DNA from: Candidatus Margulisiibacteriota bacterium
Lineage (GTDB): Bacteria; Margulisbacteria; Riflemargulisbacteria; GWF2-39-127
Assembly (NCBI GenBank): GCA_003242895.1
Contig: QKMY01000068.1
Location: 1 to 50,272, forward strand
Direction of reading: 5' to 3'
Length of the DNA stretch: 50,272 nucleotides
The notes below the pieces were generated by a model. That model saw only the letters and a list, made by a program, of their open reading frames with translations, did not search any database and was not told the origin of the DNA. Positions 1,453 through 43,909 of this stretch are shown in pieces. The position numbers and the translations under genes are program-made. Within the stretch, counting starts at the first letter, position 1. Each line of letters starts with the position of its first letter.

Positions 1453-4400
1453 TTATCGCCTGATCAAAATTTTTCCCCGGGAAAACACTGTTCGTTTTCC
1501 ATTTAGCCTGCTAACAATATGGTAGAGATAAACCCCATTGCCCATCCGCTCTCCGCTGTCAGTTTTACCATCCCACGCTACTACATTATATCCTGCATGC
1601 GCGCCCTCTTCTCCCGGTGCAAATATGCGTTCCCATATTTTATCTGCCGCATTGTTATAAATAACAAGAGTGATATCCATACTTTCATTTAGTGAATAGG
1701 TAATATTCGTTTTTTCTATGTTTGGATTAAACGGATTAGGATAATTAATCGTACCGTTTATCCTGTTGCTCCCGCTTACGACATTCAAACTCGAGATCTT
1801 AACTTCTATTGCTCGTGTCGAAAGATCTTTAACACTAATCGTCAGGTCATAAAAACCTGGAGTCAACGATACCGGCTGGATGAAGGTCATCACATTCGTA
1901 GCTGCATCATAGGTCAGCGCATTGTTTGTCAGGGTATAACTATTCGTTACCATTCTTGTCTCGTCATAAAGTGTCAATGTGATGCTTGTAATATCCACAC
2001 CGGTTCCGGAATCAGATATTTTCGCTGTAACCTTGGGTTGCTTTGACATAATATCACCCTTTATTACATCTTTAGAATTATCTATTCTTACATCGGTAAT
2101 CGTAGGATCATACGTGTCATATATTATTGTTCGGCTCAAAACATTCACATTGCCAGCACGGTCAATCGCTAGAAGTTGAAACCATAAAGACGGGTCAGGA
2201 CCTGAAAATGGTAAGGTATAGGATCCATCTACACCAGCATTTACTTTTCCGATCAACTCCTGTTTCAACCCAATAATCTTCCAAAGCTCAACGATTGTTC
2301 CAGGAGCAGCAATCCCGCTTAAGCTGCTTGTCCTTGTTGTTAATACTACAAACTGATTGCTATCAATTGACTTTCCATTAAGCGAAACATTCCCCAAAAC
2401 CGGAGGCGTCGTGTTAGGATTCCTTGGATCTGTATAATTTTTGCATTCGTCGATATTCTTAACACCATCACCGTCCGAATCCTCATCTGCATCAATAGGA
2501 TTATTAAGAGTAAATCCGTAAATCCGCTCATAATCATCACTCATGCCATCATTATCGGTATCAATATTATTATTGGAATTAGTCCCACTTAAGTATTCCA
2601 GCCAATTAGGGACCCCATCGTGATCTTTGTCAGAAAAATAACTGCCATCACTCGGATCATGAGTATCCAGCCCAGCGGCTGTTTCCCATGGATCCGGACT
2701 TCCATCTTCATCGCTATCATTCGGATACGTACCTGCCAAAAATTCTTGAAGGTTTGTTTTGCCATCACCATCAAGATCTCCAGCTCCATCGCTTATATAA
2801 GGATTCAAGCCATACGTTTTCTCCCAATCATCTGCCATTCCGTCGCCATCGGAAGCTCTTGTCTCTCTCGGATTAGTTCCCCTGTAATACTCTATAATAT
2901 TCGGGACGTGATCTCCATCAGGATCAGCATAAGCATCTGAAAGATTATTCAGAACAAACCCGTATTTTTGTTCATAAGAATCCGGCATCCCGTCATGATC
3001 TGAATCAGAAAGCAATCGATTATTAATCCCCGGATTTGTACTGGCATTAAATTCCGAAATATTGTTCAAACCATCGTAATCATAATCTTTCGTAGCATCT
3101 ATAGGATCAAGAGGACTAAATCCATAGCTAAGCTCCCAATCATTTGGGACACCGTCATGATCAGTATCATTAGTAAGCAAATAACTCATAGTAGGACTAA
3201 ACTCTGACCAGTAACTCTCATTACCAGCACCGTCTCTAATTTTTAACTGGGCGAAATATGTATTTCCGTCCACTCCGGAAAAAGAAAATGAGTTAGCAGA
3301 CCCCACTGACCCCTCAAAAAGCGCACCGACTACACTCTGCCCCCATATGCGCAGAATGTAGTCGGTAATTCCACTTCCATGATAATTATCAGTGACCGTC
3401 TGCCAACTGAATCTTCCGGGATTACTGAATACGTATTTATCTTCAATAACTGGTGCCGGCATGTTTTTTGTAACATCATCATCCATTTTATACGTGAAGG
3501 TAGCCATATTGCTCCATATTTTCGTTCCGTTCAAGAGCATGTCCTTTAGCATTTTAATCTTAAAATAATAAATCTCGTTAGTAAGCTGCCCGGGATCATA
3601 GAAATTACTTAAAGTATCAATAGACTCCTCAGGTATTACCGAATTATCCGTTGAAAAGGAATAAGTATAGCCGGAATTTTGAGAAGCATTTATCCAGTAA
3701 AAATATGGCTGCGAATTTCTAGTCCAGGAATTGTTGGCGATAACACGATAGTCATCAAAACCCACACGGGCCCTCACATCCAGTGTCGGGTTCAAATAAA
3801 CGTATATTCCATCGGAATTTCCTGACCAATCGCTTCTGTTACCGGCGATATCTACAGATCTTACCTTAAAGTAATACTTATTTTCATCTTTTCCGGAAAA
3901 AAAATACGAATTGCCAGTAGCGATATTTAAGCTGGCAACATCTGCCATACCGGGTTGCGATCCGATTTGCACTTCATAGCAACTTAACCCGGACGGACCG
4001 TAATCGATGGCGGCATCCCAGTTAATCGGAATGAGGTTCTTAGTAATAACAGAACCTGTATCATTTGGGGTTCCCGGTACACCCGGAAGCAGATTGTCAA
4101 ACTTGATTGCAAATGACAGGCTGTTCCCCCATACTCCGTTAAGGTCCCGAAGCTTTATCTTGAAATAGTAGACTCCGGCATTTAACGTCGGTATCTGATA
4201 TCCGCTTATATCTGCTGCCAAATCCACGATGTTATCAGGCACTCCGGCTGAATTCGTCGTTACGATAAAGCTGAAACCGCTATTATCAATCGATGCGTTC
4301 CAATACATATAGGGAGTAGAATGATCAATCCAATAATTATCAGTAATACCCAGAGTATCCTCAGCATCATATTGAGCTTTTAACGAATATATCTCCGATA

Positions 4401-4998
4401 CACTTGCATTAAGTGTTAACATTACACTATCCGGACCACCATAACTAATATTGTCAAACCCCTTATAGCATTCTCCGTCATAGACATTTCCGGTAGTTAC
4501 AAGGGATATCAGGCAAAGCCCTGTCGTATTAGCTGAAACCGGAAAGGCCGGCGGCCTTATTGTTACAATAAAGCAGTAAGATCCGCCAATTGCCAGATTA
4601 AGGGAAACCGGAACCGAAATATTGTCGGTAATCGAACGAATTCCATCCTTATTGTTATCTATAACCAGTTCAACACTCCAGCTTGGAGTAATGGATACAA
4701 TTGATGGCAACAAGGTCATTGTTTTGTTTCCATTATTCGTCACCCGATATGGGAAATCATGTTTGTCCGTCGTCTTAAATAAAATACTGGGTTGCTGGGT
4801 AGGCACAATAGTCATGCCACTTATTTCGTTTACTGACAGTGTGGTCTGAGAACTTACGACAAGAAGTTGTGCCTTTTTTATATATGTTATCTGCGCATTA
4901 TTAGTTATCACGATGCCTGGTGCAGTAATAGAATGAGCCACAGCATTCATACTAAAAATAAATACGAGAAAAATCCATATATTAACGATTATTTTCAT
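1453..4998 (-). CDS. Large secreted protein: FN3-like domains, Ca-binding repeats, FlgD-like C-terminus
   Basis: This protein has 1181 residues and a signal peptide (about 1-22). Residues from about 200 to 600 contain beta-sandwich segments of FN3 or Ig type, with the repeated YYFKI(K/R)xxD...NxSxWS pattern. From about 608 to 850 there are ten acidic D-x-D-x-D-G type loops (for example DTDHDGVPND, DSDGDGVKNID), as in thrombospondin type-3 or dockerin-like calcium repeats. They alternate with WExxYGxxPxxP units. The last 100 residues begin YPNPFNPN and end GNGVYLYHIVSR...KILIRR. This is the FlgD-like Ig / type A sorting-type fold found at the end of many secreted proteins. The likely role is surface or matrix structure or adhesion (inference). 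It lies 14 bases downstream of the gene that starts at 5990, in the same transcription direction. Confidence 0.85.
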   Translation of the reverse strand: MKIIVNIWIFLVFIFSMNAVAHSITAPGIVITNNAQITYIKKAQLLVVSSQTTLSVNEISGMTIVPTQQPSILFKTTDKHDFPYRVTNNGNKTMTLLPSIVSITPSWSVELVIDNNKDGIRSITDNISVPVSLNLAIGGSYCFIVTIRPPAFPVSANTTGLCLISLVTTGNVYDGECYKGFDNISYGGPDSVMLTLNASVSEIYSLKAQYDAEDTLGITDNYWIDHSTPYMYWNASIDNSGFSFIVTTNSAGVPDNIVDLAADISGYQIPTLNAGVYYFKIKLRDLNGVWGNSLSFAIKFDNLLPGVPGTPNDTGSVITKNLIPINWDAAIDYGPSGLSCYEVQIGSQPGMADVASLNIATGNSYFFSGKDENKYYFKVRSVDIAGNRSDWSGNSDGIYVYLNPTLDVRARVGFDDYRVIANNSWTRNSQPYFYWINASQNSGYTYSFSTDNSVIPEESIDTLSNFYDPGQLTNEIYYFKIKMLKDMLLNGTKIWSNMATFTYKMDDDVTKNMPAPVIEDKYVFSNPGRFSWQTVTDNYHGSGITDYILRIWGQSVVGALFEGSVGSANSFSFSGVDGNTYFAQLKIRDGAGNESYWSEFSPTMSYLLTNDTDHDGVPNDWELSYGFSPLDPIDATKDYDYDGLNNISEFNASTNPGINNRLLSDSDHDGMPDSYEQKYGFVLNNLSDAYADPDGDHVPNIIEYYRGTNPRETRASDGDGMADDWEKTYGLNPYISDGAGDLDGDGKTNLQEFLAGTYPNDSDEDGSPDPWETAAGLDTHDPSDGSYFSDKDHDGVPNWLEYLSGTNSNNNIDTDNDGMSDDYERIYGFTLNNPIDADEDSDGDGVKNIDECKNYTDPRNPNTTPPVLGNVSLNGKSIDSNQFVVLTTRTSSLSGIAAPGTIVELWKIIGLKQELIGKVNAGVDGSYTLPFSGPDPSLWFQLLAIDRAGNVNVLSRTIIYDTYDPTITDVRIDNSKDVIKGDIMSKQPKVTAKISDSGTGVDITSITLTLYDETRMVTNSYTLTNNALTYDAATNVMTFIQPVSLTPGFYDLTISVKDLSTRAIEVKISSLNVVSGSNRINGTINYPNPFNPNIEKTNITYSLNESMDITLVIYNNAADKIWERIFAPGEEGAHAGYNVVAWDGKTDSGERMGNGVYLYHIVSRLNGKRTVFSRGKILIRR

Positions 4999-5012
4999 TA
5001 ATAATATGTCCT

Positions 5013-5990
5013 TTACTTAATCACTACCGTATAATTTATTGTACCGGATACATTGCCCGCAATGGGAGAAAGAGCGATTCTCAGTCGTGCAATATTCGGG
5101 TCCATTTTGTTGCCTCCAGCTTGTGAAAGCGGAGTATAATTATATACTGCAGGGTCACTTATTGCAGAATAACTAAAGGTAACCCTTACACCCGCATCAG
5201 AACAGATATTTGCGGTACTCCCGAGGCGAAATTCCGTATTAATTGTTGGTATGATATCTGTAAACACTACATTGTTAGCAGCTCCATTACCAACATTCTT
5301 GTATTTGATATTAAAGGTTACCGTCGCTCCAGGTACCGGAGAATTACCACTATCCCAACTGTGCCCAACCGTATAATTCTTGCTGACAAGAAGAATCGGA
5401 AGCTTTAACCAGGTGTTAATCAATTGTTTATAATCTACATATCCGCCATAAACATTCCCATTATACCCGGTATAATAGGTAGGCTGTGTGGTTTTTCCCT
5501 CAATCTCAAAATTAACATCCATCGTTACAAATGTGTTAATTGTTGCGGTGGAAAGGGCGTTCACGGTGACGTAAAAGTTAGCCGATGCCCCGCTATTTAA
5601 CACAAATTGCTGGCTCAGGGCCTCAATAGTAAAATCTCCATTTACTGAAACATTTTCAGTCACCAACAGAAAGTTTTCGGAGACTGAATTGCCGACATTT
5701 CTTATGGTATAGCAATAGATAATCGAATGATTAGATTCTATACCATTATTTGAAGGGGTATTAAAAAGGATATCATAGCCGTAAATTGCCTGGACAATTT
5801 GATCGGAAACGGAGGCCGTAGCAATTTTCTGCGTTATCCTTTGTCCTGAATTAAAGTTGGCAGTAACGATATATCCGGCTACTGCAGTCCCAGCAGATGT
5901 ACCAACAGTGGATCCTAACTGATATGCGGCATTCGCACCAAAAATGAGAATATTTAACAGAAAACAGGTTAATAAAAAAGTTTTTATCAT
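5013..5990 (-). CDS. Secreted DUF11-type protein, paralogue of the next gene upstream
   Basis: This protein has 325 residues with a signal peptide ending about residue 21 (GANA-AYQLG). It resembles its neighbour at 6008-6979 throughout. Shared marks are the mature N-terminus (A[YF]QL.S..GT), a QT.NVS-like first half, a conserved Y(T/N)G.(N/D)G.VYGG segment, and a C-terminal DUF11-like domain. That domain has the form V.PG(A)..(T/F)....GN......V..DI.PT.NT and ends in GTINYTVVIK. DUF11 domains are Ig-like repeats of surface proteins. The tight spacing to both neighbours (14 and 17 bases) indicates one operon. It is probably a cell-envelope or surface component; no enzymatic motif is visible. 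Confidence 0.75.
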   Translation of the reverse strand: MIKTFLLTCFLLNILIFGANAAYQLGSTVGTSAGTAVAGYIVTANFNSGQRITQKIATASVSDQIVQAIYGYDILFNTPSNNGIESNHSIIYCYTIRNVGNSVSENFLLVTENVSVNGDFTIEALSQQFVLNSGASANFYVTVNALSTATINTFVTMDVNFEIEGKTTQPTYYTGYNGNVYGGYVDYKQLINTWLKLPILLVSKNYTVGHSWDSGNSPVPGATVTFNIKYKNVGNGAANNVVFTDIIPTINTEFRLGSTANICSDAGVRVTFSYSAISDPAVYNYTPLSQAGGNKMDPNIARLRIALSPIAGNVSGTINYTVVIK

Positions 5991-6007
5991 CTGTTTTTTC
6001 CCCTTCT

Positions 6008-6979
6008 CTATTTAATTATAAGATTATAAGTAATATTACCGGTAGAATTTGCAGGAATAGTATTATATTGAACCCGGATCTTTGCAGCATTGTAGGCGGG
6101 CGTTAAATTCCATACATTATTCCAAAAATACGATAGTATCGGTGCCGACGCCTGACTACTGTAAACAACAGCATTTCCAGTTAACGTCGTGTTTAAGGTT
6201 GGCAATATATCGATTATCTCTACGTTCTTAGCGTACAGACTTCCTGTATTTCCCCAGTCTAACCTATAGGTCAGTTTCGCTCCCGGAACCACTGCGGGCA
6301 AAGATCCGGTATAGCCTGCAGGCACATTGACCGTCACGGTCTTGGTAAGATTGACTATAGCAATCAAAACCGTAGCGGTCACAACTTGAGATTGATTGCC
6401 AAACCCGCCATAAACGAACCCATTGTCTCCAGTATACGGAACCGCGGTAAGATCGGAATCACACTTAATATTGAGAGAAACAGAGACATAGGCACCAGGA
6501 GTTACTTGCGCACTTGAAGTTATAACCAGATCAAACACGGGCGATGCAGTATCCGGAGATAGCATAATGCTGGTTGTGGAAACAGTTATATTCCATGACG
6601 TGCTATCACTTAAATAATATTTTGCCGAATAGGTAACGGAGAAAACATCCGAATGATTACCTACATTCATTATCTGGTATGAGAAGGTTGATACCTCTCC
6701 GGGCTCAATCCCCATAGTAGGCACATCTGCCCAGCTAGGATTATATCCATAGATTGCATTAACCGTTATAACCGAAACATTGTCGGTTGCCGTTTTTTGG
6801 GTACCTGAATCCGTTTGATATTCAAGTGTTACTTCCGAGCCAAGGATTTCATTATCAGCGGCAGTACCACTTCTCGAATCGAGCTGAAACGCAGCATTCG
6901 CAACCGATGACAGAGAGAGGATACCTATTGCCAGGAGAATATAGAGCCTATTTTTCATACTCCTTTTCCTTTCGAACAT
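6008..6979 (-). CDS. Secreted DUF11-type protein, paralogue of the next gene downstream
   Basis: This protein has 323 residues. It starts with a short basic stretch and a signal peptide (about 9-29, ending VANA-AFQLD). The second Met (codon 8) is a possible alternative start. Like the gene at 5013-5990 it has the AFQLDSRSGT mature start, the YTGDNGFVYGGFG segment near the middle and a C-terminal DUF11-type domain ending GNITYNLIIK. The pair looks like a tandem duplication that has since diverged strongly. Expected location is the outer surface or periplasm. Function is unknown. Confidence 0.75.
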   Translation of the reverse strand: MFERKRSMKNRLYILLAIGILSLSSVANAAFQLDSRSGTAADNEILGSEVTLEYQTDSGTQKTATDNVSVITVNAIYGYNPSWADVPTMGIEPGEVSTFSYQIMNVGNHSDVFSVTYSAKYYLSDSTSWNITVSTTSIMLSPDTASPVFDLVITSSAQVTPGAYVSVSLNIKCDSDLTAVPYTGDNGFVYGGFGNQSQVVTATVLIAIVNLTKTVTVNVPAGYTGSLPAVVPGAKLTYRLDWGNTGSLYAKNVEIIDILPTLNTTLTGNAVVYSSQASAPILSYFWNNVWNLTPAYNAAKIRVQYNTIPANSTGNITYNLIIK

Positions 6980-7062
6980 TTATTATTTTGCATAAACATT
7001 TACTTTACAGGTTAACTTCGATTTAAAGTCCTGGTCCGGGACACTGATTCGAAGCACCCAAG

Positions 7063-8313
7063 TCAAAACACCTTTATTTCAAAAAGCGAAACAAAATCAC
7101 AATTATCTTGTTTGTCGTAATACGGGCTATTCTGTGGAACCTGGACCTTAATGTATCTTGCACCCTTAGGAGGAAATTTGTGGCTATACACATACATTGG
7201 GGCTCCGGTCGTTGTAAATATTCCATCTCCGGCATTAAGGCCCGTACCAATAGCTTCCCAATTTTTGTTATCTAAACTCACCAGGATATTAAATGATTTC
7301 GAATATGATAACGCCCACCAGTAGAGAATAACCTCTGAAATGTTACAGGTTTTTGTAAGGTCCATTGCGATAAACTGATCTTTTTTCGCAACGCTGCCGG
7401 ATAAAGCCAGCGAGGTAAAGTAATCCATCCCGCCATCAGTTAACCGCTCGATTGCCGGGATAGTTTTGCTTACAAATTTGTCTTCCGGCAAATGAGTGAA
7501 TGTACCAATAACCGGCTTACCGAAAGCAAGATTATTTTTCTGTGTTTTAACGTATATGAATTCAGACTTTTCCGATTTAACTATATCTGTGGAGGATACT
7601 TCCACCTGGAAGCGATATTTCGTATCAGGTTTCAGCCCATAGAGAACTCCCGAATGCAGCGTTCGCGGCATGATAAATCGCAGGGGAGCTTCCAGTTTGC
7701 CGTCAAAGGTATCTTCTCCGTAAAAGATCTGGCTTTTAGCATCTATATCTGTTTTAAAGCGAATAGATATTTCTCTGTCACTTATACTATAATTAATATC
7801 ATTTAACGCCAATTTGGGATTTTCTTCTTTAATAATCTCTATTTCTTTAATTTTTATATGTTTACCTTTATTTAATATAGTATCAGAGGGGAAGACCAGA
7901 GAAATATACCGGGAATACCGGCTATGTAATTCTATTGTTTGAACAAGGGTATTCTTTTCCTTTTTTCCTTTTGTGCCATCCAACCCGCTGATAACATCAT
8001 TCTCTACTTTTGATTTACTGAGCCAAAGGGAAAAATTCTTAGCTATTCCTTCATTTGCCCAATAAATTTTTATTTCCTTTATATAGAAAAGGGACTGAAG
8101 ATCGAAATCAATCTTGATATTTTTGCTTCCAATCTCTTCTGATTCTGCTGAAAATGCTTCATTGCCTTCAGTCTTAATATCGCTTATTACCTTCAAATTA
8201 TTGAACTGTCCTGTGATTGTTGCACCTGGCGCAATATTTTCGGCACTATAAAGAAAAGTTGCTAACAAAAAAGAAAACATACCTGTTAAAAACATTATTT
8301 TATAATATCTCAT
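7063..8313 (-). CDS. Exported protein with two discoidin-like (F5/8 type C-like) domains around an FN3-like domain
   Basis: This protein has 416 residues with a signal peptide (about 1-23, ending LYSAE). Residues about 25-150 and 265-416 each have the look of a galactose-binding/discoidin beta-sandwich: IxPGxxxTGxF... then (I/V)KEIKIYW or ISEVILYWW, a FxxxxSxDxxxW element and Y(I/S)KVxVP. Between them lies a FN3-like segment with the L(K)PDTKYRFQVEV signature near residue 235. Such domains usually bind glycans or other surface ligands. It is 83 bases from the gene above it and in the same direction as the rest of the exported-protein cluster. The domain calls rest on pattern only. Confidence 0.7.
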   Translation of the reverse strand: MRYYKIMFLTGMFSFLLATFLYSAENIAPGATITGQFNNLKVISDIKTEGNEAFSAESEEIGSKNIKIDFDLQSLFYIKEIKIYWANEGIAKNFSLWLSKSKVENDVISGLDGTKGKKEKNTLVQTIELHSRYSRYISLVFPSDTILNKGKHIKIKEIEIIKEENPKLALNDINYSISDREISIRFKTDIDAKSQIFYGEDTFDGKLEAPLRFIMPRTLHSGVLYGLKPDTKYRFQVEVSSTDIVKSEKSEFIYVKTQKNNLAFGKPVIGTFTHLPEDKFVSKTIPAIERLTDGGMDYFTSLALSGSVAKKDQFIAMDLTKTCNISEVILYWWALSYSKSFNILVSLDNKNWEAIGTGLNAGDGIFTTTGAPMYVYSHKFPPKGARYIKVQVPQNSPYYDKQDNCDFVSLFEIKVF

Positions 8314-8397
8314 TACATTTACTCTCCGATCCTAAGATACTTATAATTCATTTGTTATAATTGTAGCATTTTTACCAAACCAAAAACTATTCCCCGG

Positions 8398-11340
8398 CTA
8401 CTTGATAATAACAGCATAGGTAGCAGTTCGTTGCTCACCGGCATTCAATACAGCGAAATTACTCCATTTTATTCCAACGATCGGTGCGGTTTCACTTGTA
8501 TCATAGGCACCAAGGGCCGCGTGCTGATAGGTTCTCAAGCATGATGCCGAAGCTGCTGCTGACCCTACAACGTATACCGTATTAGTCGTCGCAGGGAGCA
8601 TATCAGTTATCCCGATTCCCTTAACCGGGCCATAGCCATTATTAGTAAAAGTTATCGAATACTGCACCGTTGTCCCGGGAATAGGCTGAGACGAGAGGCC
8701 CCCTTTACTAGTAGCGTATTGTTTACTAATTGTTATATTTCCAGCAGAATCTTTATTCGAAGAAGGGCTCTCATTTCCAGCATGATCAACAACAACAACT
8801 TGATAATAATTATTTTGAGAGGGGATCACAGAATAATCCTCATAACCAGTGTTGGTGGTATTTCCAATATTATTGGTTATAATCAGCAAATTAGTACCCC
8901 TGAATATTTTATAGGTTTCAACGTCACCGGAGAGGGATGCTCCCCACGAAAGAGAAACTCTCGATCCGGGATGCGCTACAGCAACAAGAACCGAGGCCGA
9001 AGCCGGAGAAGAAATATCATAGGTAACCCCGGTATTTATAGTCGGGATACTGGTATTCCCCACCAGATCAGAAACAGACATAGAGACGTTATAAATTCCG
9101 CCATCAATCAAGCTATCCGAGGTGATCGTGCTGCCATCCCCGAACAAGTCATTACCAAGAATATTGAAGGTATTTATTCCTGCATGATAGGTTAAATTAC
9201 TGGTTATCGTATGCGGTGAATTAGGGTCCGAACTGCCGCCGGTACGCGTGAAAGAGAGCTTAACAGCACCAGGAGAGCAGACCTCCGAAAGGCTATATTC
9301 AACATAAATGGAAAGCTTAGCATAGCTATTCTTCACAGGATTGTTAAGGGTGACAATCGGTGCAGTAATATCCAGAAGAATGCTCATGGTAACAACACCG
9401 CTGGCATTGGCCGCAGCATCCTGAGCATTAATCGTCACCGTATTTGTTCCTTCAGTCAGTCCTTCAATCTTCACCTGCCAGCTCGTAGCAGTTGGATAGG
9501 TCGTGGCGTTTATGGTTATCGCGGTACTGCAAAGAAGAGTTATTACTGACGTGTCAGAACTTTTAGTTCCTGATATGAAAATCGTCACGTTGTTTGTGGT
9601 GATATTTTGAACATCAAATCCCGGAGTTACCGGAGGGGTAGTATCGAGCTGCAACTCATAGGCACCCAGATCTATGACAAAATCAAAAATTCTTTGGCTG
9701 CCTGACAAATCCGTTGTTACATTGCCTGAGTTAGCTTGCCAATTAGTATTTGAACCGGCATTCACAGCCACACTTGTTACTTTTAAATGGAAATCGTTGT
9801 TATTATAATTCACAAAATTGTCCGTTCCGAATCCATAGATAAGGTTCGAAGTAACCATAGACGCAGGCAAGGAACTATCGCTAAAGGTACTGTAGCTTAT
9901 TGTGCAGGTATTAAAATAGCTGCCGGTACCACCGTCAAAACCATCGGCAAAAATGGTATTATATGCTTCCAGTTCACCTCCAATACCAGCAGCGGCAGAA
10001 TTATCATAATAAACTTCCGGGGTATTCTTCGCTAAGGTACAATTAATGAGCTTATTATCTCCGGCAAAAAAAGCACCGCCGCTTAAGGTAGCGTTATTAC
10101 TAATGACCAGGCAGTTAATAAGCTCGTTGTTCCCTTCATAAAAACCACCGCCACTCACCGCCAGGTTATTTTGAAAAAGACTATTTTTAAAAACGTTAAC
10201 CCCTGAGTTGAAAGCGCCGCCATAATCAGCGGTATTATTTTTGACAATAGAGCCTATCAAATTAATTCTTGAGGCATTACCTCCCCCGTAAACAGCTCCG
10301 CCCAAATAAGCTGCATTACCACTAAGAACAGAGGCATTGATTGTAAGTAGCTGACTACTACTATTGACACCTATATATATCGCTCCTCCGGCATTATCCC
10401 CTGAATTAATAACGCTTACCTGTCCATTCATTAAAGTAAGGTTATCGAGCACCCATCTAATAGCATGCTGCTGTAAAATATTTCGAGTGATTCCTTGTGC
10501 ATTAAGAATCACGTTTACACTTGTTCCGGCATTAGGAGATCCCATGAGGCTAATATCCTGAATATCAGGCCATATCAACCCACGATTTCCCTCTCCAGCA
10601 TGTACTCCCGGATAAATGTAAATATGATTCCCCGTGGCGGCAGCATTAAGTGCTTGCTGTAAGGTCACATATTCACGGCTTGTCTCGAATATTTTGCAGA
10701 TGCTATTAAGTATTTCAATATTCCGGGTAATGTAACTACTACTATTTCCAGATACATCTACAGCATTTACGGAAATAACGTTATCGCCTAATATAAGGCC
10801 ATTGATGGTTACAATCCAGCTTGTATTGGTTGGGTACTCAACGGCGGTAATAGCTACAGCTGAGTTGCAGGTAATATTAACGGTAGAGATATCCACTGTC
10901 TTAGTTCCGGAAATTACCTGATCCGTATTGTTCGTTGGTGTATCAAGATAATTTATTAGCGGGACTGCGACAACGATACTAATCGTGCAAGGAATATTGC
11001 TGGTAATGCCAGCACAATATGCCTCAATGACTGTTGTAGTTACAAAAGCTGGTGCCAGAAACAGAAAGTTGGCAGTTCCATGAATATCTGTCGTCACGGT
11101 TTCCGACTGGAAATTTCCGCTGCCAATGAGGATATTGGCAGTAACAGATATCCCGGCAATTCCTGACCCGTCAGTATCAATAACCTGAACATGAACAGCG
11201 CTTGTGCCACCCTTACTAACAATTAGCCCGGCTTCAGAAAAATTAACGGTGCTCACAGCCGCGTAACCACACGAAGACCAGGCAACGAAGAAACTTAGAA
11301 AAAGAATATAAAAAAAAGAACGATTGATCATTTTTCTCAT
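8398..11340 (-). CDS. Large secreted beta-helix/Ig-like protein with DUF11-type C-terminus
   Basis: This protein has 980 residues with a signal peptide (about 1-28, ending CGYAA). An Ig-like domain (about 30-125, invasin/Big_1-like, with VxVxDxxGxGIAGxxVxA) comes first, followed by a short Ig-like unit. Then about 220-560 resembles a right-handed parallel beta-helix. It begins YVTLQQALNAAATGNHIYIYPG and has repeated GGA(I/V/F)Y/F turns and (L/I)INC.(I/L) rungs, as in polymorphic-outer-membrane or pectate-lyase-like proteins. More Ig/FN3 units follow. The last ~90 residues resemble the DUF11 domain of the two smaller proteins and end TYAVIIK. It is first in the exported-protein run and its promoter should lie in 11341-11565. 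Function is probably adhesion or surface architecture. Confidence 0.8.
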   Translation of the reverse strand: MRKMINRSFFYILFLSFFVAWSSCGYAAVSTVNFSEAGLIVSKGGTSAVHVQVIDTDGSGIAGISVTANILIGSGNFQSETVTTDIHGTANFLFLAPAFVTTTVIEAYCAGITSNIPCTISIVVAVPLINYLDTPTNNTDQVISGTKTVDISTVNITCNSAVAITAVEYPTNTSWIVTINGLILGDNVISVNAVDVSGNSSSYITRNIEILNSICKIFETSREYVTLQQALNAAATGNHIYIYPGVHAGEGNRGLIWPDIQDISLMGSPNAGTSVNVILNAQGITRNILQQHAIRWVLDNLTLMNGQVSVINSGDNAGGAIYIGVNSSSQLLTINASVLSGNAAYLGGAVYGGGNASRINLIGSIVKNNTADYGGAFNSGVNVFKNSLFQNNLAVSGGGFYEGNNELINCLVISNNATLSGGAFFAGDNKLINCTLAKNTPEVYYDNSAAAGIGGELEAYNTIFADGFDGGTGSYFNTCTISYSTFSDSSLPASMVTSNLIYGFGTDNFVNYNNNDFHLKVTSVAVNAGSNTNWQANSGNVTTDLSGSQRIFDFVIDLGAYELQLDTTPPVTPGFDVQNITTNNVTIFISGTKSSDTSVITLLCSTAITINATTYPTATSWQVKIEGLTEGTNTVTINAQDAAANASGVVTMSILLDITAPIVTLNNPVKNSYAKLSIYVEYSLSEVCSPGAVKLSFTRTGGSSDPNSPHTITSNLTYHAGINTFNILGNDLFGDGSTITSDSLIDGGIYNVSMSVSDLVGNTSIPTINTGVTYDISSPASASVLVAVAHPGSRVSLSWGASLSGDVETYKIFRGTNLLIITNNIGNTTNTGYEDYSVIPSQNNYYQVVVVDHAGNESPSSNKDSAGNITISKQYATSKGGLSSQPIPGTTVQYSITFTNNGYGPVKGIGITDMLPATTNTVYVVGSAAASASCLRTYQHAALGAYDTSETAPIVGIKWSNFAVLNAGEQRTATYAVIIK

Positions 11341-21494: not shown

Positions 21495-22724
21495 TTAAAC
21501 ATTAATAATATGTTGGTTTTTGAGCAGCGTTTTTATGGCCCCGACAAGGTACAGAGAGCCACAAAGAACAAAGATACCATCATTTACGGTATCGTTAATC
21601 CATTCCACCACTTCATCTAGCCTAGTCCCGGAAATGATTTTTCCATGGTAGGACAAAGAACGCAATTCGAGCTCCAGATCTTCGGGCAACCAACAGTTTT
21701 CATTCGGTATGGCGACGAAACTTACGCTCTCTATCGTATTATTCTTTAACTGTAGCATCTCGTCTAAAATAGGAAGAGGCTCTTTTCTTTTTAATATACC
21801 CACAATAAAATTGATATTTTTTCCTGTATATTTTTTATCGATGGCTGTTAGTAAAGCAGCCATACCCAGCTGATTATGTGCCCCATCGATAATCACATTA
21901 TCAGCTATTACCTCAAATCTTCCCGGGAACGAAAAACTACTCACAAGGCCAGACAGATCTTCCTCGGTCACAAAAACATTATATTTCGACAAAACATACT
22001 TCGCTACTTCAACCGCTAACGAAAAATTCTGGTTTTGGTAAGCAACAGATACGCCAGGAATATTATCCGTTTTTACAATACGCATATCAACATAATTATC
22101 CTGAGCAATCCGCTCAAGAACACCTAAAACCTCAACTTCCTGTTCAACAGTAAAAACAGGCTTTCCTTTCTTGATAATCCCTGCTTTCTCCATAGCTATT
22201 TGCGTAATTGTGTTACCCAGGATATCTTTGTGATCAAAACCGATAGGAGTTATGACCGCGCATTCCGGGTTAACAATATTTGTAGCATCGAACCGACCGC
22301 CAAGCCCTACTTCAAAAATTGCATAATCGACTTTCTCTGATAAAAAGAAAATAAAGGACATAAGCGTTAATACTTCGAATTCCGTCAACTCAAGCCCATT
22401 TATTTCTTTTGATTTGCTCATATATGCGATTATCTCAGCAAATTTAGTTTGACATATTTCTTGATTATTTATGAGGAATCGTTCAGTATACTCTTCGAGA
22501 TGCGGGGATAAATACGTTCCGACTTTAAACCCTTTATTTATCAGCAACGTGGATATAGCCTTCGTCGTTGAACCTTTGCCGTTAGTACCTGCAACTAAGA
22601 CACTTTTGTACCCATTCTGCGGCGAGCCAAGCAACTGTGAGGCGGCAGTAATCCGTTCTAAGCCTGGCTTAATACCAAAATGCTTTCTATTATTCAAAAA
22701 AAGGCAGGCTTGTTTATAGTTCAT
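21495..22724 (-). CDS. folC: Folylpolyglutamate synthase / dihydrofolate synthase
   Basis: This protein has 409 residues. It is a Mur-ligase-family enzyme that adds glutamate to (dihydro)folate using ATP. The P-loop AGTNGKGST, the YLSPHLEEY(T)ERF loop, FEVGLGGRFDATN, TPIGFDHKDILG, the lysine-carboxylation/ATP region with EKAGIIK, and the C-terminal-domain opening SFPGRFE..DNVIIDGAHNQ all match FolC. It follows valS by eight bases, a conserved pairing in Firmicutes and others. Whether it is mono- or bifunctional cannot be read from the sequence. Confidence 0.94.
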   Translation of the reverse strand: MNYKQACLFLNNRKHFGIKPGLERITAASQLLGSPQNGYKSVLVAGTNGKGSTTKAISTLLINKGFKVGTYLSPHLEEYTERFLINNQEICQTKFAEIIAYMSKSKEINGLELTEFEVLTLMSFIFFLSEKVDYAIFEVGLGGRFDATNIVNPECAVITPIGFDHKDILGNTITQIAMEKAGIIKKGKPVFTVEQEVEVLGVLERIAQDNYVDMRIVKTDNIPGVSVAYQNQNFSLAVEVAKYVLSKYNVFVTEEDLSGLVSSFSFPGRFEVIADNVIIDGAHNQLGMAALLTAIDKKYTGKNINFIVGILKRKEPLPILDEMLQLKNNTIESVSFVAIPNENCWLPEDLELELRSLSYHGKIISGTRLDEVVEWINDTVNDGIFVLCGSLYLVGAIKTLLKNQHIINV

Positions 22725-37174: not shown

Positions 37175-38374
37175 ATGAAGTTTTCCAAGTCATTATCATT
37201 TTTTTTCTATTCGTTCCTATTTCTACTTCTCGTAGCTAACCTGAGTAACGCCTCTTCCTTAATTAACGGAATGTCCCCGGTTAATGAGGGCTACCATAAC
37301 TTTACATTCTTTGAGATTTGCACAATCCGCATAGAAAACAAGTTTAACGGAAATATTTCAGTTCGATTTAATAACGATTCCTTTGTCCCAGTTGGTAAAG
37401 TTGTTGTTCCGGCTAATAATACCCTTAAGAAAGGGTTTCGAGCCAGCAAGTGGTCCAATATCGGAACAGTTACCGCTACAGCAGTAAACGCCATGCATAT
37501 AAAAACCGACTTCAATATTCAGGACAATCGGGGAGTTATTTTTAGTCTTCTTCCGAAAGAATTTTTGCAGGATGCGCCCAAGGATTATGATAAGCTCGAT
37601 AGTCACACGATATTTACGAATATTCCCGGTGGAGAGCAGATATTCGGACAAGAAGCATCTCCTTTTGTCGGAAATCCGGTGTTTGTCATGAGAAATAACG
37701 AGCTCAGGCCTCTCTTTAAGGGCTATGTACCAGCACTCGGAGATATTATCGAGATACAAGTGATATGCCCCACGAATTATCCCCGTGAAATCATTTTTGA
37801 AAACAGGTTCGGAGGCAGAATATACAGCGTTGATCAGGAGTACAGCTCAAAAATTATAGGGTCAGTACTCTCTCCGGTGCTTGGTGTCGGAAGATTCCTC
37901 GGCACACAATTTGTTCCACCGGGAAGAATAAGGGCAAATCATACCGGGGTAATAGATATATCAACCTCACCACTTGGAGAATTCGGTGGTTTTCAGATTA
38001 TTCCGGTCAATCATTCGATGAGTTCAGAAATGGGGAGGGCAAGGATCAAGACGCAATGGATGATAATCGGGCCGCTGAATGCAGAGGATAATTCGCTTGA
38101 AAACGTTTCTCCGTTTTTTTCGTCATTTATTCGTCCGGAATATGGAAGAAACGATCTTAACAGTAAAAACTGGATAGCCAAGCTACAAAAAAGATTCTTA
38201 GTCCAAATCAAAATAAATAATGGAGAGTGGCAGCCCATCCCGGCAATTTCATATAAGCTTGAGGAAGAACTGCCTGCAGAAGCTGACACAGTATTCGAAA
38301 AAACAACCCATATCAGAATATTATTTCCTCAGCTTTCTAGCCTGACAACACAAAGCAAGGAGCAATCCCGGTGA
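37175..38374 (+). CDS. Exported protein of unknown function
   Basis: This protein has 399 residues with a signal peptide (about 1-26, NLSNA-SS). The mature protein is rich in beta-strand patterns and lacks further membrane segments. It contains FENRFGGRIYSVDQEY, GRFLGTQFVPPGRIRANHTGVIDIS and a C-terminal region KRFLVQIKINNGEWQPIPAISYKL. No known catalytic motif is visible and I cannot place the family. Six bases separate it from the response regulator, and its stop overlaps the GTG start of the membrane protein gene (GTGA). A secreted or periplasmic partner in a three-gene operon is the best description. Confidence 0.75.
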   Translation: MKFSKSLSFFFYSFLFLLLVANLSNASSLINGMSPVNEGYHNFTFFEICTIRIENKFNGNISVRFNNDSFVPVGKVVVPANNTLKKGFRASKWSNIGTVTATAVNAMHIKTDFNIQDNRGVIFSLLPKEFLQDAPKDYDKLDSHTIFTNIPGGEQIFGQEASPFVGNPVFVMRNNELRPLFKGYVPALGDIIEIQVICPTNYPREIIFENRFGGRIYSVDQEYSSKIIGSVLSPVLGVGRFLGTQFVPPGRIRANHTGVIDISTSPLGEFGGFQIIPVNHSMSSEMGRARIKTQWMIIGPLNAEDNSLENVSPFFSSFIRPEYGRNDLNSKNWIAKLQKRFLVQIKINNGEWQPIPAISYKLEEELPAEADTVFEKTTHIRILFPQLSSLTTQSKEQSR

Positions 38375-39111
38375 AAACCTTTAAATGGCAACTTAGTTTC
38401 GGCCTGTTACTGATAGGAATATCGGCAGCAATTTATTACATCCATTATCTTTTGTTCAATGATCTGCACGATATCATTTTCTACTTAATTCATGACATTG
38501 CATTTGTTCCCATAGAAGTACTGCTCGTAACCTTAATAATCCATCAGCTGCTTGATATGAGAGAAAAAAGCACCCTGTTCAAAAAACTCAATATGATTAT
38601 CGGAAGTTTTTTTAGTGAAGTCGGAACAAAACTACTCGGAGAAATATCAGCATGTGATAAAGATTACCATAAAATTAAAGGGCAATTCATTATTACTCCC
38701 GACTGGGAGGACAAAGATTTTAAAAAAGCCATAAAGCATTTTAAAAATTATAATTTTACTTTAGAACCTAGTAAAGAGAAGCTGCAAACCTTAAAGCTCT
38801 TTCTGAAAGAAAAGAAAGGGTTCCTCTTAAGGCTCCTCGCGAACCCTAACTTATTAGAACATGATAGATTTACTGATCTTTTATGGGCTGTCCATCATTT
38901 AGATGAAGAATTAATCCATAGAAAAGATATCGCACATCTTTCTGCAAATGACTTTGACCATATTGTGAATGATGTTAAGCGGGCCTATAGTTTACTAATT
39001 ATTGAATGGCTTGCTTATATGAAGCACCTCAAGAATGACTATCCTTACCTGTTTTCATTAGCAATTCGGATTAACCCTTATGACCCGTCCGCCTCGCCAG
39101 AAATATCTTAA
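38371..39111 (+). CDS. Two-TM membrane protein with cytoplasmic helical domain, unknown function
   Basis: This protein has 246 residues, starting with GTG in a four-base overlap (GTGA) with the exported-protein gene. Two membrane segments (about 8-29 and 43-62) are followed by a soluble, mainly helical part with charged residues (FLKEKKGFLLRLLANPNLLEHDRFTDLLWAVHHLDEELIHR). This last segment resembles conserved hypothetical proteins seen in varied bacteria and archaea, but no function is known to me. The final bases overlap the end of the convergent HTH gene by four bases. Confidence 0.72.
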   Translation: MKTFKWQLSFGLLLIGISAAIYYIHYLLFNDLHDIIFYLIHDIAFVPIEVLLVTLIIHQLLDMREKSTLFKKLNMIIGSFFSEVGTKLLGEISACDKDYHKIKGQFIITPDWEDKDFKKAIKHFKNYNFTLEPSKEKLQTLKLFLKEKKGFLLRLLANPNLLEHDRFTDLLWAVHHLDEELIHRKDIAHLSANDFDHIVNDVKRAYSLLIIEWLAYMKHLKNDYPYLFSLAIRINPYDPSASPEIS

Positions 39112-40622: not shown

Positions 40623-43507
40623 TTATTCAGGGATGAAGTTAAGACTACTTCCTTCAGCTTGCAGGATAGATATATTCATTTCTTCCGATACTCTTTTTTC
40701 CCTCGCGATTAGGCTATAAAAACAAGGAACAACAAAAATTGTCAACAGCGTTGAAACAACTAACCCGCCAATAACTGCAATAGCCATAGGAATGCGGGTC
40801 TCTGCGCCCGGACCAAAGGCTAACGCCGAGGGAATTGCACCGGCAATAGTTGCCAGCGTTGTCATCAGGATAGGACGTAAGCGAATAGGGCATGCCTCCT
40901 GAAGGGCGTCCTTGATATTTTTCCCTTGTGAACGCATTTGATCCGTAAAATCAACCAACAGGATCGAGTTTTTCTTAACAAGCCCCATCAAAAGAATTAA
41001 GCCGATCATACTGTAAATGTTCATCGACTGATTAAACAGCAATAGCGCCAGGAGTGCTCCGGAAACACTAAAAGGAAGTGCCATCAAAACGGACAAGGGG
41101 TGAGAATAACTATTAAACTGTGACGCCAGGATCATATACGCAACGAGTATACCGAGAACCAATACGCCCATCAAGCTTTGCAGAGATTCACGCGAGGCCT
41201 GAGCGTTGCCGCTTAAAACTATCCGATATCCTTCAGGTAGAATCTTTTTAGCAGTTGCTTCGACCTGCGATATAACCTGTGCCTGGGAAGCCCCGGTTTT
41301 AACATTAGCGTAAATGGTTATTGCCCGCTCACGGTCTTTTCGCGTGATACTCTGAAGCGCCGGACGGGAAACAACCTTGACCACCTGGGATAACGGGATC
41401 AGTTCACCACGGTTATTGCGGACATTCAAGCCCAGAATGATGTTTTCCCCGTCGCGATCTTTATCCGGCAATTTCACAATAATATCATAACGATGCCCTT
41501 TCGATTCATAACGTGCTACTTTGATGCCGCCAATCATCGCCTGGATTGATTGTCCTATAGAAGCCAAACTTACACCTCGCAATGACGCCTGTACCCGGTC
41601 AGGAACTATGTCTATTTCTGTCATACCCAGTTTGTAGTCGGTTCCCAGATCGGTTAGTGACTGATTTTTTTCAAGCGCATTAAACAACGATAAAGAAGCT
41701 TTGCCGAGAATATCCCAGTCCGGACCTCGCACAGTGAACTCTACCGGAAAACTCATACCGCTGGAAAAGCTGCGCATGGAAGGGTCCTGCAACGAGATCT
41801 TACATCCTTTTATCTGTTTCTTGAGCTGACCTCTGGCCTTATTCATGAATTCCTGCTGCGTTAATTCTTTTTTTGTTCGTTTATTTATTCCCCGCTGCCC
41901 TTTCGGCTTCATGCTCACAAAAATATTACCCACAGTAGGATCACCGCCGCCGTATCCGCCGACATTAGCAAAATAACCGTCAATTTCCGATTGTTCTGAC
42001 AAAAAAGCTTCGATAGCTTTTACTTTCTCATCGGTATAAGTAAGCGACGAGCCTGCCGGTGAGTTTACACGCATTGAAAACATACCCTGATCTTGCGCCG
42101 GAACCATCTCACTCCGCAGATATTTCACACTCATCAAGCTTATCGCGAAAAATATTAAAGATATAACGATTACTGACATTCGATGATTTAGCGCTTTTTT
42201 TAAAAGCCCTGCATAAAGCTTTTTTAATCCCTCAAATCCCCAGTCAAAAAATCTTCCAAGATGAGATTCATGCTCTTTTGCCTGGAGAAACTGTGAACAG
42301 CGCATCGGAGTTAGCGTTAATGCCTCAAATAGTGATAGTAGTACTGCCACGGTCATCGTTATCGCAAACTGGAAAAAGAATTTACCGATAAATCCGGACA
42401 TAAAAGCAACGGGTAAAAATAACGCAACGATAGCAAAGGTTGCCGCCATAGCTGCGAACGATATTTCGCTAGCGCCACCAAGTGCTCCCTGGTAACGATT
42501 TTTTCCTTGTTGCTTATGCCGGATGATATTTTCCAGCACCATAATCGCATCATCAACAACAATACCAATAGCCAGACTCAATGCCATCAACGTGAAAGTA
42601 TTCAGCGTGAAATTTAAAAATTTAAGGACAATAAAGGTTCCGATAACCGAAGTTGGAATGGATAACAGGACATTCAGAGTTGCTGACCAGGAACCTAAAA
42701 ACAGCCAGCAAACAAATGAAGTTAATAAAACAGAAAAGATTATCGTTACTAATAATTCGTGAACTGCATCTGCGATGAATGTAGTTGTATCAATGCGGAT
42801 ATCAAGATGGATACCTTCCGGTAGACTTTTTTGAAGGCTGCTGATACGGTCACGAACCTGCTTACTGACCTCTACTGCGTTTGATCCTCGCTGCTTAAGG
42901 ATACCTAGACCGAGAGCAAACTGGCCATTTGCCCGGCTTATTCGCTGGGCATCAGCCAGACCATCCTCGATGTCCGCTACCTGTTTCAAATAAAACGGTG
43001 CATAATTCGGCTGGCCTCCACGTGAGTTAAGGCGGATATTTTCAAACTCCGCGAGTGATCTTGCTTCACCCAGGGTCCGAACTGTGGATTGCTTGGCAGG
43101 ACCATCAATATGTCCGCCGGGGAGCTCTATATGTTCATTCTGAATAGAATTGATGATATCCTGTACAAGTAAAGGCATATCTGTTTAGGGCAGCTTTATT
43201 CGCCCAAACCCGCAAGGCAGGCTCTACATAGCCCCCCAGGTCAACGTCTCCGACTCCGGGAAGACTCGTGAATTTGTCTTTTAAAACATCACGGACATAG
43301 GTCATCAATTCCTGGCGGGATTTCGTTTGACTACTCACTGTAAGCCACATTATAGGTTGATCTTCAGGATTAGTTTTAGAAATAGTAGGAGGCTCGATAC
43401 CATCAGGTAATGAACGTTGGGCCCGGGATAGCTTCGCTTGTACTTCCTGAAGAGCAACATCAATATTCTGCTTTAGGTCAAATTCCACAGAAATTCTTGC
43501 CGACCCG
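40623..43507 (-). pseudogene. RND (HAE1/AcrB-type) efflux pump, truncated and frameshifted
   Basis: Most of an AcrB-type inner-membrane transporter is present, but in two frames. The upstream piece (about 43507-43165) begins at RNGSARISVEFDLKQNIDVAL, about residue 90 of a normal RND protein; the earlier part is absent. The frame is then lost near 43166-43170, where one extra base in GCCTTTACTTGTACAG splits the RYALTVQDI(I/V)N region. The remainder (to 40623) is open for about 850 codons. It contains the TM4 motif GIVVDDAIMVLEN with paired Asp, FMSGF(I/F)GKFF(F/Q)QFA, ASQFNSY and the TM10-12 motifs MGLVKKNSILLVDF and R(M)RPILMTTLAT(I)AGA(I)P. The pump is very probably inactive unless the frameshift is a sequencing error. 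Confidence 0.85.
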
Positions 43508-43909
43508 TTACGGCATATCAGAATATATCTGGTACGCAGCCCAATCCGCTGCTTCTTTTTGAGATTGAATTACACTTTTGTTTTGCTTAATTGCATTAAC
43601 AATCCGAAACCCTCTGAACAGTGGCTGAGTTGCGGTTAGTTTTATACTTGTTTGATCTGTAAATTCGCCGCTTCCGGCGATTAAATGTTGGCTAGAATAT
43701 GAGAATGCCCCACTTATGGTTGGGAATGAAGCACCCAGTGCCTGTTTATAGTGCTCTTCCGATTGAATAACCTGCTCTTGCTGGTCTGCCAAAACTTCAC
43801 TCCTGGCTCTGGCCAGTTGAAAGGCATCGCTCAATGTATAAGATTTCTCCTGAGCGTTAAGACTGCTCAAATAAAATATAAAAAACACAAGTATATATAA
43901 CTTTTTCAT
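43508..43909 (-). pseudogene. Outer-membrane efflux protein (TolC/OMF-type), 5' fragment
   Basis: This is 133 residues of an OMF protein that is normally about 420-450 residues. It has a signal peptide (about 1-20, LNAQEKSYT) and the typical start YTLSDAFQLARARSEVLADQQEQVIQSEEHYKQALG(A)SFPTISG. Next come TQPLFRGFR and the coiled-coil part ending AADWAAYQIYSDMP, where it stops. The sequence then runs straight into the interior of the RND gene. The rest of the OMF gene, any membrane-fusion-protein gene and the RND 5' end are missing. ATG 43909 is used; a TTG codon lies just before it. Confidence 0.8.

Follow-up and report, generated by a model that had tools for sequence, protein, structure and literature searches.

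A probable recent inactivation of a two-gene OMF-RND efflux operon in a Candidatus Margulisiibacteriota genome

What happened to the efflux locus at positions 40623 to 43909 of the window, that is, of the whole 50,272-nucleotide stretch of DNA analysed here? An earlier note described a TolC-type (OMF) gene running straight into an RND gene that is itself frame-broken, and left the choice between recent decay and an assembly error. We investigated which sequences remain at this locus, what was lost from it and how long ago, and which explanation fits best. The window is the whole of contig C68 in a genome of 3.35 Mb, assembled in 82 contigs and rated 100% complete with 0.24% contamination. Pfam matches and alignment with intact relatives delimited the following features.

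43508..43909, minus strand: remnant of the OMF (TolC-type) gene, with ATG at 43909, 131 OMF-like codons plus 2 chimeric codons (133 in all) and a stop at 43510-43508, as delimited by aligning five intact OMFs (415-432 aa)
43516..43517, minus strand: deletion junction, from alignment with intact relatives, where the remainder of the OMF gene and RND codons 1-83 are missing
43135..43515, minus strand: RND remnant a, starting at codon 84 of the RND gene, in a frame differing from that of the OMF and closing at stop 43135; PF00873, E 1.1e-28, profile positions 83-201
43167..43177, minus strand: interval holding the second frame break, where homology to the intact RND quits one frame and resumes in another
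40623..43178, minus strand: RND remnant b, in a third frame, an 851-codon ORF; PF00873, E 5.5e-217, profile positions 199-1020; aligns with the intact protein of G005 from residue 197 onward

The broken locus was real, with an OMF remnant running out of frame into an RND gene, and the anatomy first proposed for it was correct to within a few codons. Alignment recovered both the deletion and the RND frame break, which had been placed near 43168, and the ~850 RND codons said to remain open corresponded to the 851-codon ORF reaching down to 40623. Some positions needed adjustment. The junction exists, but 43508 is where the stop falls, and homology changes at 43516/43517; 133 codons is the length of the ORF, of which only 131 are OMF-like; and homology does restart within the RND gene, but at codon 84 and not at about codon 90. 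The OMF remnant matched PF02321 (E 3.7e-11) and kept profile positions 1-105 of 187 of a single repeat, not the two OEP repeats. Both RND remnants exceeded the PF00873 cut-off of 28 bits (723 bits for remnant b and 100 bits for remnant a), which places them in the RND permease family, and since they match consecutive parts of one profile, they represent one broken gene rather than chance. The frame break lies ~345 bp beyond the deletion, inside the RND gene, so that both lesions fall within ~345 bp. With these disabling lesions relative to intact orthologues, the locus as assembled reads as a pseudogene, and neither gene can yield a complete protein.

Intact counterparts were searched for in 8 genomes of the class, the window genome included, with an orthologue threshold of E <= 1e-150. 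RND orthologues were present in 4/7 of the other genomes (G002, G004, G005 and G006), and none was found at this threshold in G001, G003 and G007. In all four genomes an OMF gene of 415-418 codons, with two PF02321 repeats, is followed by an RND gene of 1023-1034 codons; the two genes either have two bases between them or overlap by 1 to 4 bases. At the level of the phylum, the RND lineage was found at E <= 1e-190 in 7/74 genomes, the window genome counted; the genomes searched included no other member of its species, genus or family. OMF precedes RND with an 8-base overlap in G050, whose OMF matched PF02321 with only one repeat reported, with a 4-base overlap in L024 and with a 10-base gap in L025; in G047 the contig starts inside the RND gene. 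Incidentally, L025 stands on an Elusimicrobia-labelled contig with 2 N, and at L025:4003-7081 the RND frame closes at 6843 and homology continues to 7081, that is, with a frame break near the end. The two-gene OMF-RND loci, 7/7 without an adaptor gene and 6 of them intact, are as follows.

L027:4460-8820 (G005)
L028:5255-9603
L029:5340-9655
L030:5681-10005
L085:13-4279
L024:4115-8520
L025:2643-7081

How much was lost could be read from these relatives, in five of which the two codons that stand 1 base apart in the window are separated by 1103-1121 bp. By this spacing the missing piece measures about 1.10-1.12 kb, and not ~2 kb as the earlier note had it; the OMF gene has lost its final two thirds and the RND gene its first 83 codons. 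We searched for this segment elsewhere in the 3.35 Mb assembly, using the matching portions of the two G005 proteins as queries, and did not find it; within the genome the best matches were to paralogues, with identities of 24% for the OMF portion and 29% for the RND portion. The idea that the segment had been misplaced on another contig was thus rejected. As to how it went, no direct repeats of 8 bases or more, which had been suggested as a trace to look for, occur in 43400-43700; a deletion between repeats would leave one copy, so this says nothing about a repeat consumed in the event. One 8-base inverted pair (43463-43470 / 43519-43526) touches the junction, but a rough estimate puts the chance expectation at about one pair of this kind per 300 bases.

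The segment that disappeared was also said to include a fusion-protein gene. The intact relatives bore out the loss of the OMF remainder and of the RND start, but they gave no support to the loss of an adaptor. OMF and RND are adjacent, with no adaptor gene between them, at 7/7 related loci in which the pair can be seen (6 of them intact, 1 frame-broken). The adaptor profile TIGR01730 had no match on the contig of the operon in G000, G002, G004, G005, G006 and G050, which leaves these loci without the adaptor (MFP) gene that a tripartite system would carry in or beside the operon, and it had matches above cut-off elsewhere in each of these genomes. This whole-genome scope covers five of the seven genomes with a visible pair, plus G000. 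In L024 an adaptor gene lies ~2 kb downstream on the opposite strand; its best model is PRK03598, its TIGR01730 score is 86 bits for a cut-off of 94.9, and the genes beside it read like an ABC exporter. Ten neighbouring ORFs of the operon, selected among many, in L024, L025 and L027-L030 contained no Pfam adaptor family. With OMF and RND adjacent in the relatives and no adaptor on the operon contig, we rejected the loss of an adaptor gene from the window operon, and nothing suggests one.

This adaptor-less order is the mildly unusual point of the locus. RND pumps of the HAE-1 type generally need an adaptor. The operon of an RND transporter often encodes the adaptor too, according to a part of PMC4446572. 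Among the papers retrieved, none had an adaptor-less OMF-RND operon as its subject according to titles and the beginnings of abstracts, and the first 300,000 of the 747,799 characters of PMC8277102 held no match to the phrases sought. The gene arrangement is what was observed; that the relatives define an RND pump lineage whose operon consists of OMF and RND only, either coupling directly without an adaptor or borrowing one from another operon, is an improbable reading. The adaptor-less arrangement in the relatives is what could merit the attention of a specialist, an adaptor being part of the standard model of RND pumps in this setting.

With respect to the age of the damage, no in-frame stop was found in the 1092 remnant codons. 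Assuming a transition weight of 2, a stop would arise from about 3.8% of point mutations placed at random, and a burden above ~77 neutral substitutions (2.4%) is therefore unlikely at the 95% level. Conservation was assessed by leaving out each sequence in turn and counting its changes at columns that do not vary among the other five. For remnant b the counts were 16/342 in the window, 12/338 in G005, 21/347 in G004, 82/408 in L024, and 2/328 in G006 and 3/329 in G002, two mutually close sequences whose counts are lowered by this closeness. For remnant a they were 4/50 in the window, 2/48 in both G005 and G004, 1/47 in both G006 and G002, and 15/61 in L024, which makes the window slightly high, in small numbers. 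For the OMF remnant the window had 4/27, the four class relatives 2/25, 5/28, 2/25 and 0/23, and L024 13/36. In the RND tree, the terminal branches were 0.20 for the window, 0.25 for G004 and 0.05 for G005, the window branch being ~4x that of G005, in a tree of weak inner support where three nodes reach only 51, 52 and 66. The sequence looks constrained until recently, and a modest speed-up is possible. The remnants are conserved to much the same degree as the intact orthologues and free of in-frame stops, which indicates that the damage is recent.

The RND identity to G002, G004 and G006 (64-68%) exceeded the ValS identity (55-56%), and given the low support of the same three nodes we make no claim of horizontal transfer. 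The ValS match of G005 was split over C69 and C71 (66% and 42% identity), which precludes a clean comparison and might mean a mixed bin. Two further observations concern the rest of the window. At positions 1453-11340, five consecutive genes on the minus strand (1181, 325, 323, 416 and 980 aa) appear secreted or surface-like from their translations only, and at positions 37175-39111 a pair of neighbouring genes (399 and 246 aa), with no Pfam match at E 0.001, lies beside a response regulator.

Both of the explanations offered at the outset, recent decay and an assembly error, fit remnants that are stop-free and so well conserved. A possibility was that the organism's OMF-RND operon is intact, and that the contig was misjoined, with a wrong base, within a patch of about 350 bp. 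The closeness of the lesions, the conservation of everything around them and the fragmentation of the assembly into 82 contigs all agree with such an error, and so does the absence of the missing piece from every other contig, as expected if its reads had been omitted. On the other hand, when the two deletion sites were compared in four relatives, the longest shared words were 4-6 bases, no more than between random pairs of sites, which does not suggest a repeat able to mislead an assembler; the argument is weak, the window's own lost sequence being invisible. The other large ORFs of the window also appear whole, as judged by reading. On balance we find an assembly error less likely than decay, and it is the most serious of the alternatives. 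A codon-preference frame scan covering 428,281 bases from the same genome (the window, 350,007 further bases and two shorter pieces, 13,001 and 15,001 bases long) gave six adjacent pairs without a start codon in the stretch searched, and for the pair in the window (22735) the ATG of the next gene, at 22724, lies just outside. The scan missed the known break of the window, and cannot show the absence of others; it was discarded as a gauge of assembly frame errors.

Conservation alongside lesions would also be accounted for if intact and deleted versions coexisted in the population, the contig representing one haplotype or a mixture. Yet the assembly has no second copy of the segment and its contamination estimate is 0.24%, and we regard such heterogeneity as very unlikely. 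A third alternative is a rearranged gene that still functions, frameshifting or re-initiation at ATG 43178 yielding a working, shortened RND protein. The 851-codon ORF does have this ATG, and it retains IGIVVDDAI and GLVKKNSI, the Asp-Asp and Lys motifs that align to MdtB and that we take, from AcrB, to be the proton-relay positions. Its product, however, would start near residue 197 of the full-length protein, presumably, on the topology of AcrB, without the first transmembrane helix and the first porter subdomain; the four class orthologues are all full length, and no Shine-Dalgarno-like stretch was seen by eye just upstream of the ATG. We give this alternative next to no credence.

Collectively, these data make it probable that the locus is a recently inactivated OMF-RND bicistron, lost by ordinary gene decay in the organism. 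Decay is favoured because the genome is rated complete, because comparison of the sites in the relatives does not point to a repeat (weak evidence) and because two further pump loci exist. The ancestor would have carried a two-gene efflux operon, with an OMF gene of ~415 codons directly before an RND permease gene of ~1030 codons. A single ~1.1 kb deletion, out of frame, would have taken the OMF from codon 132 on together with RND codons 1-83, and a separate one-base frame change, ~345 bp deeper in the RND gene, would have followed it. No working pump would be left, the OMF product amounting to ~30% of its full length and the RND, on the topology of AcrB, presumably missing its first transmembrane helix and the beginning of the porter domain. 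The lesions would then be present in the organism and not merely in the consensus, and the pump plausibly dispensable. As a matter of fact, OMF, MFP and RND matches lie side by side, in open frames without stops, on C1 and on C56, and these two OMF-adaptor-RND loci make the loss of the window pump plausible.

Two points count against decay. Little of it is visible beyond the two lesions, whose close spacing could also come from one poorly assembled patch; and the window branch, shorter than that of G004 but ~4x that of G005, and the count of 4/50 in remnant a, against 1-2 of 47-48 in the class relatives, were counted against it as well. Should decay be correct, the window genome would be left with its two adaptor-bearing loci as large RND pumps, and the lineage has probably dropped one of three. 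The broken operon is in itself of little import, except that annotators should not call three genes at this locus.

How does the locus compare with known systems? Among HAE-1 RND permeases, the closest solved structure by sequence is MdtB (PDB 9lyq), with MexB, CmeB and AcrB lower, and in the window PF00873 spans the whole remnant with the Asp-Asp and Lys motifs in place; judging from this family match, structure and motifs, the ancestral locus was an RND efflux pump. The remnant stays under the NCBIfam multidrug subfamily cut-offs (NF033617, 706 of 1250; TIGR00915, 500 of 940). The intact G005 orthologue stays under them too (905 of 1250 and 654 of 940), and no subfamily was therefore assigned. 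A search among plasmids with the G005 RND protein returned at least 5000 records, all below 60% identity, the best among the matches listed being at 36-37%.

Bacterial pseudogenes can form by deletion and frameshift, and the window case, likewise with two disabling lesions in otherwise conserved sequence, is nothing special among them. The nearest comparison is the bicistron of G005, as well as those of G004, G006 and G002: it is orthologous to the window locus, with identical gene order and strand and an RND 64-72% identical over remnant b. In these class relatives the frames are open, whereas the window copy misses ~1.1 kb and bears a second frame break.
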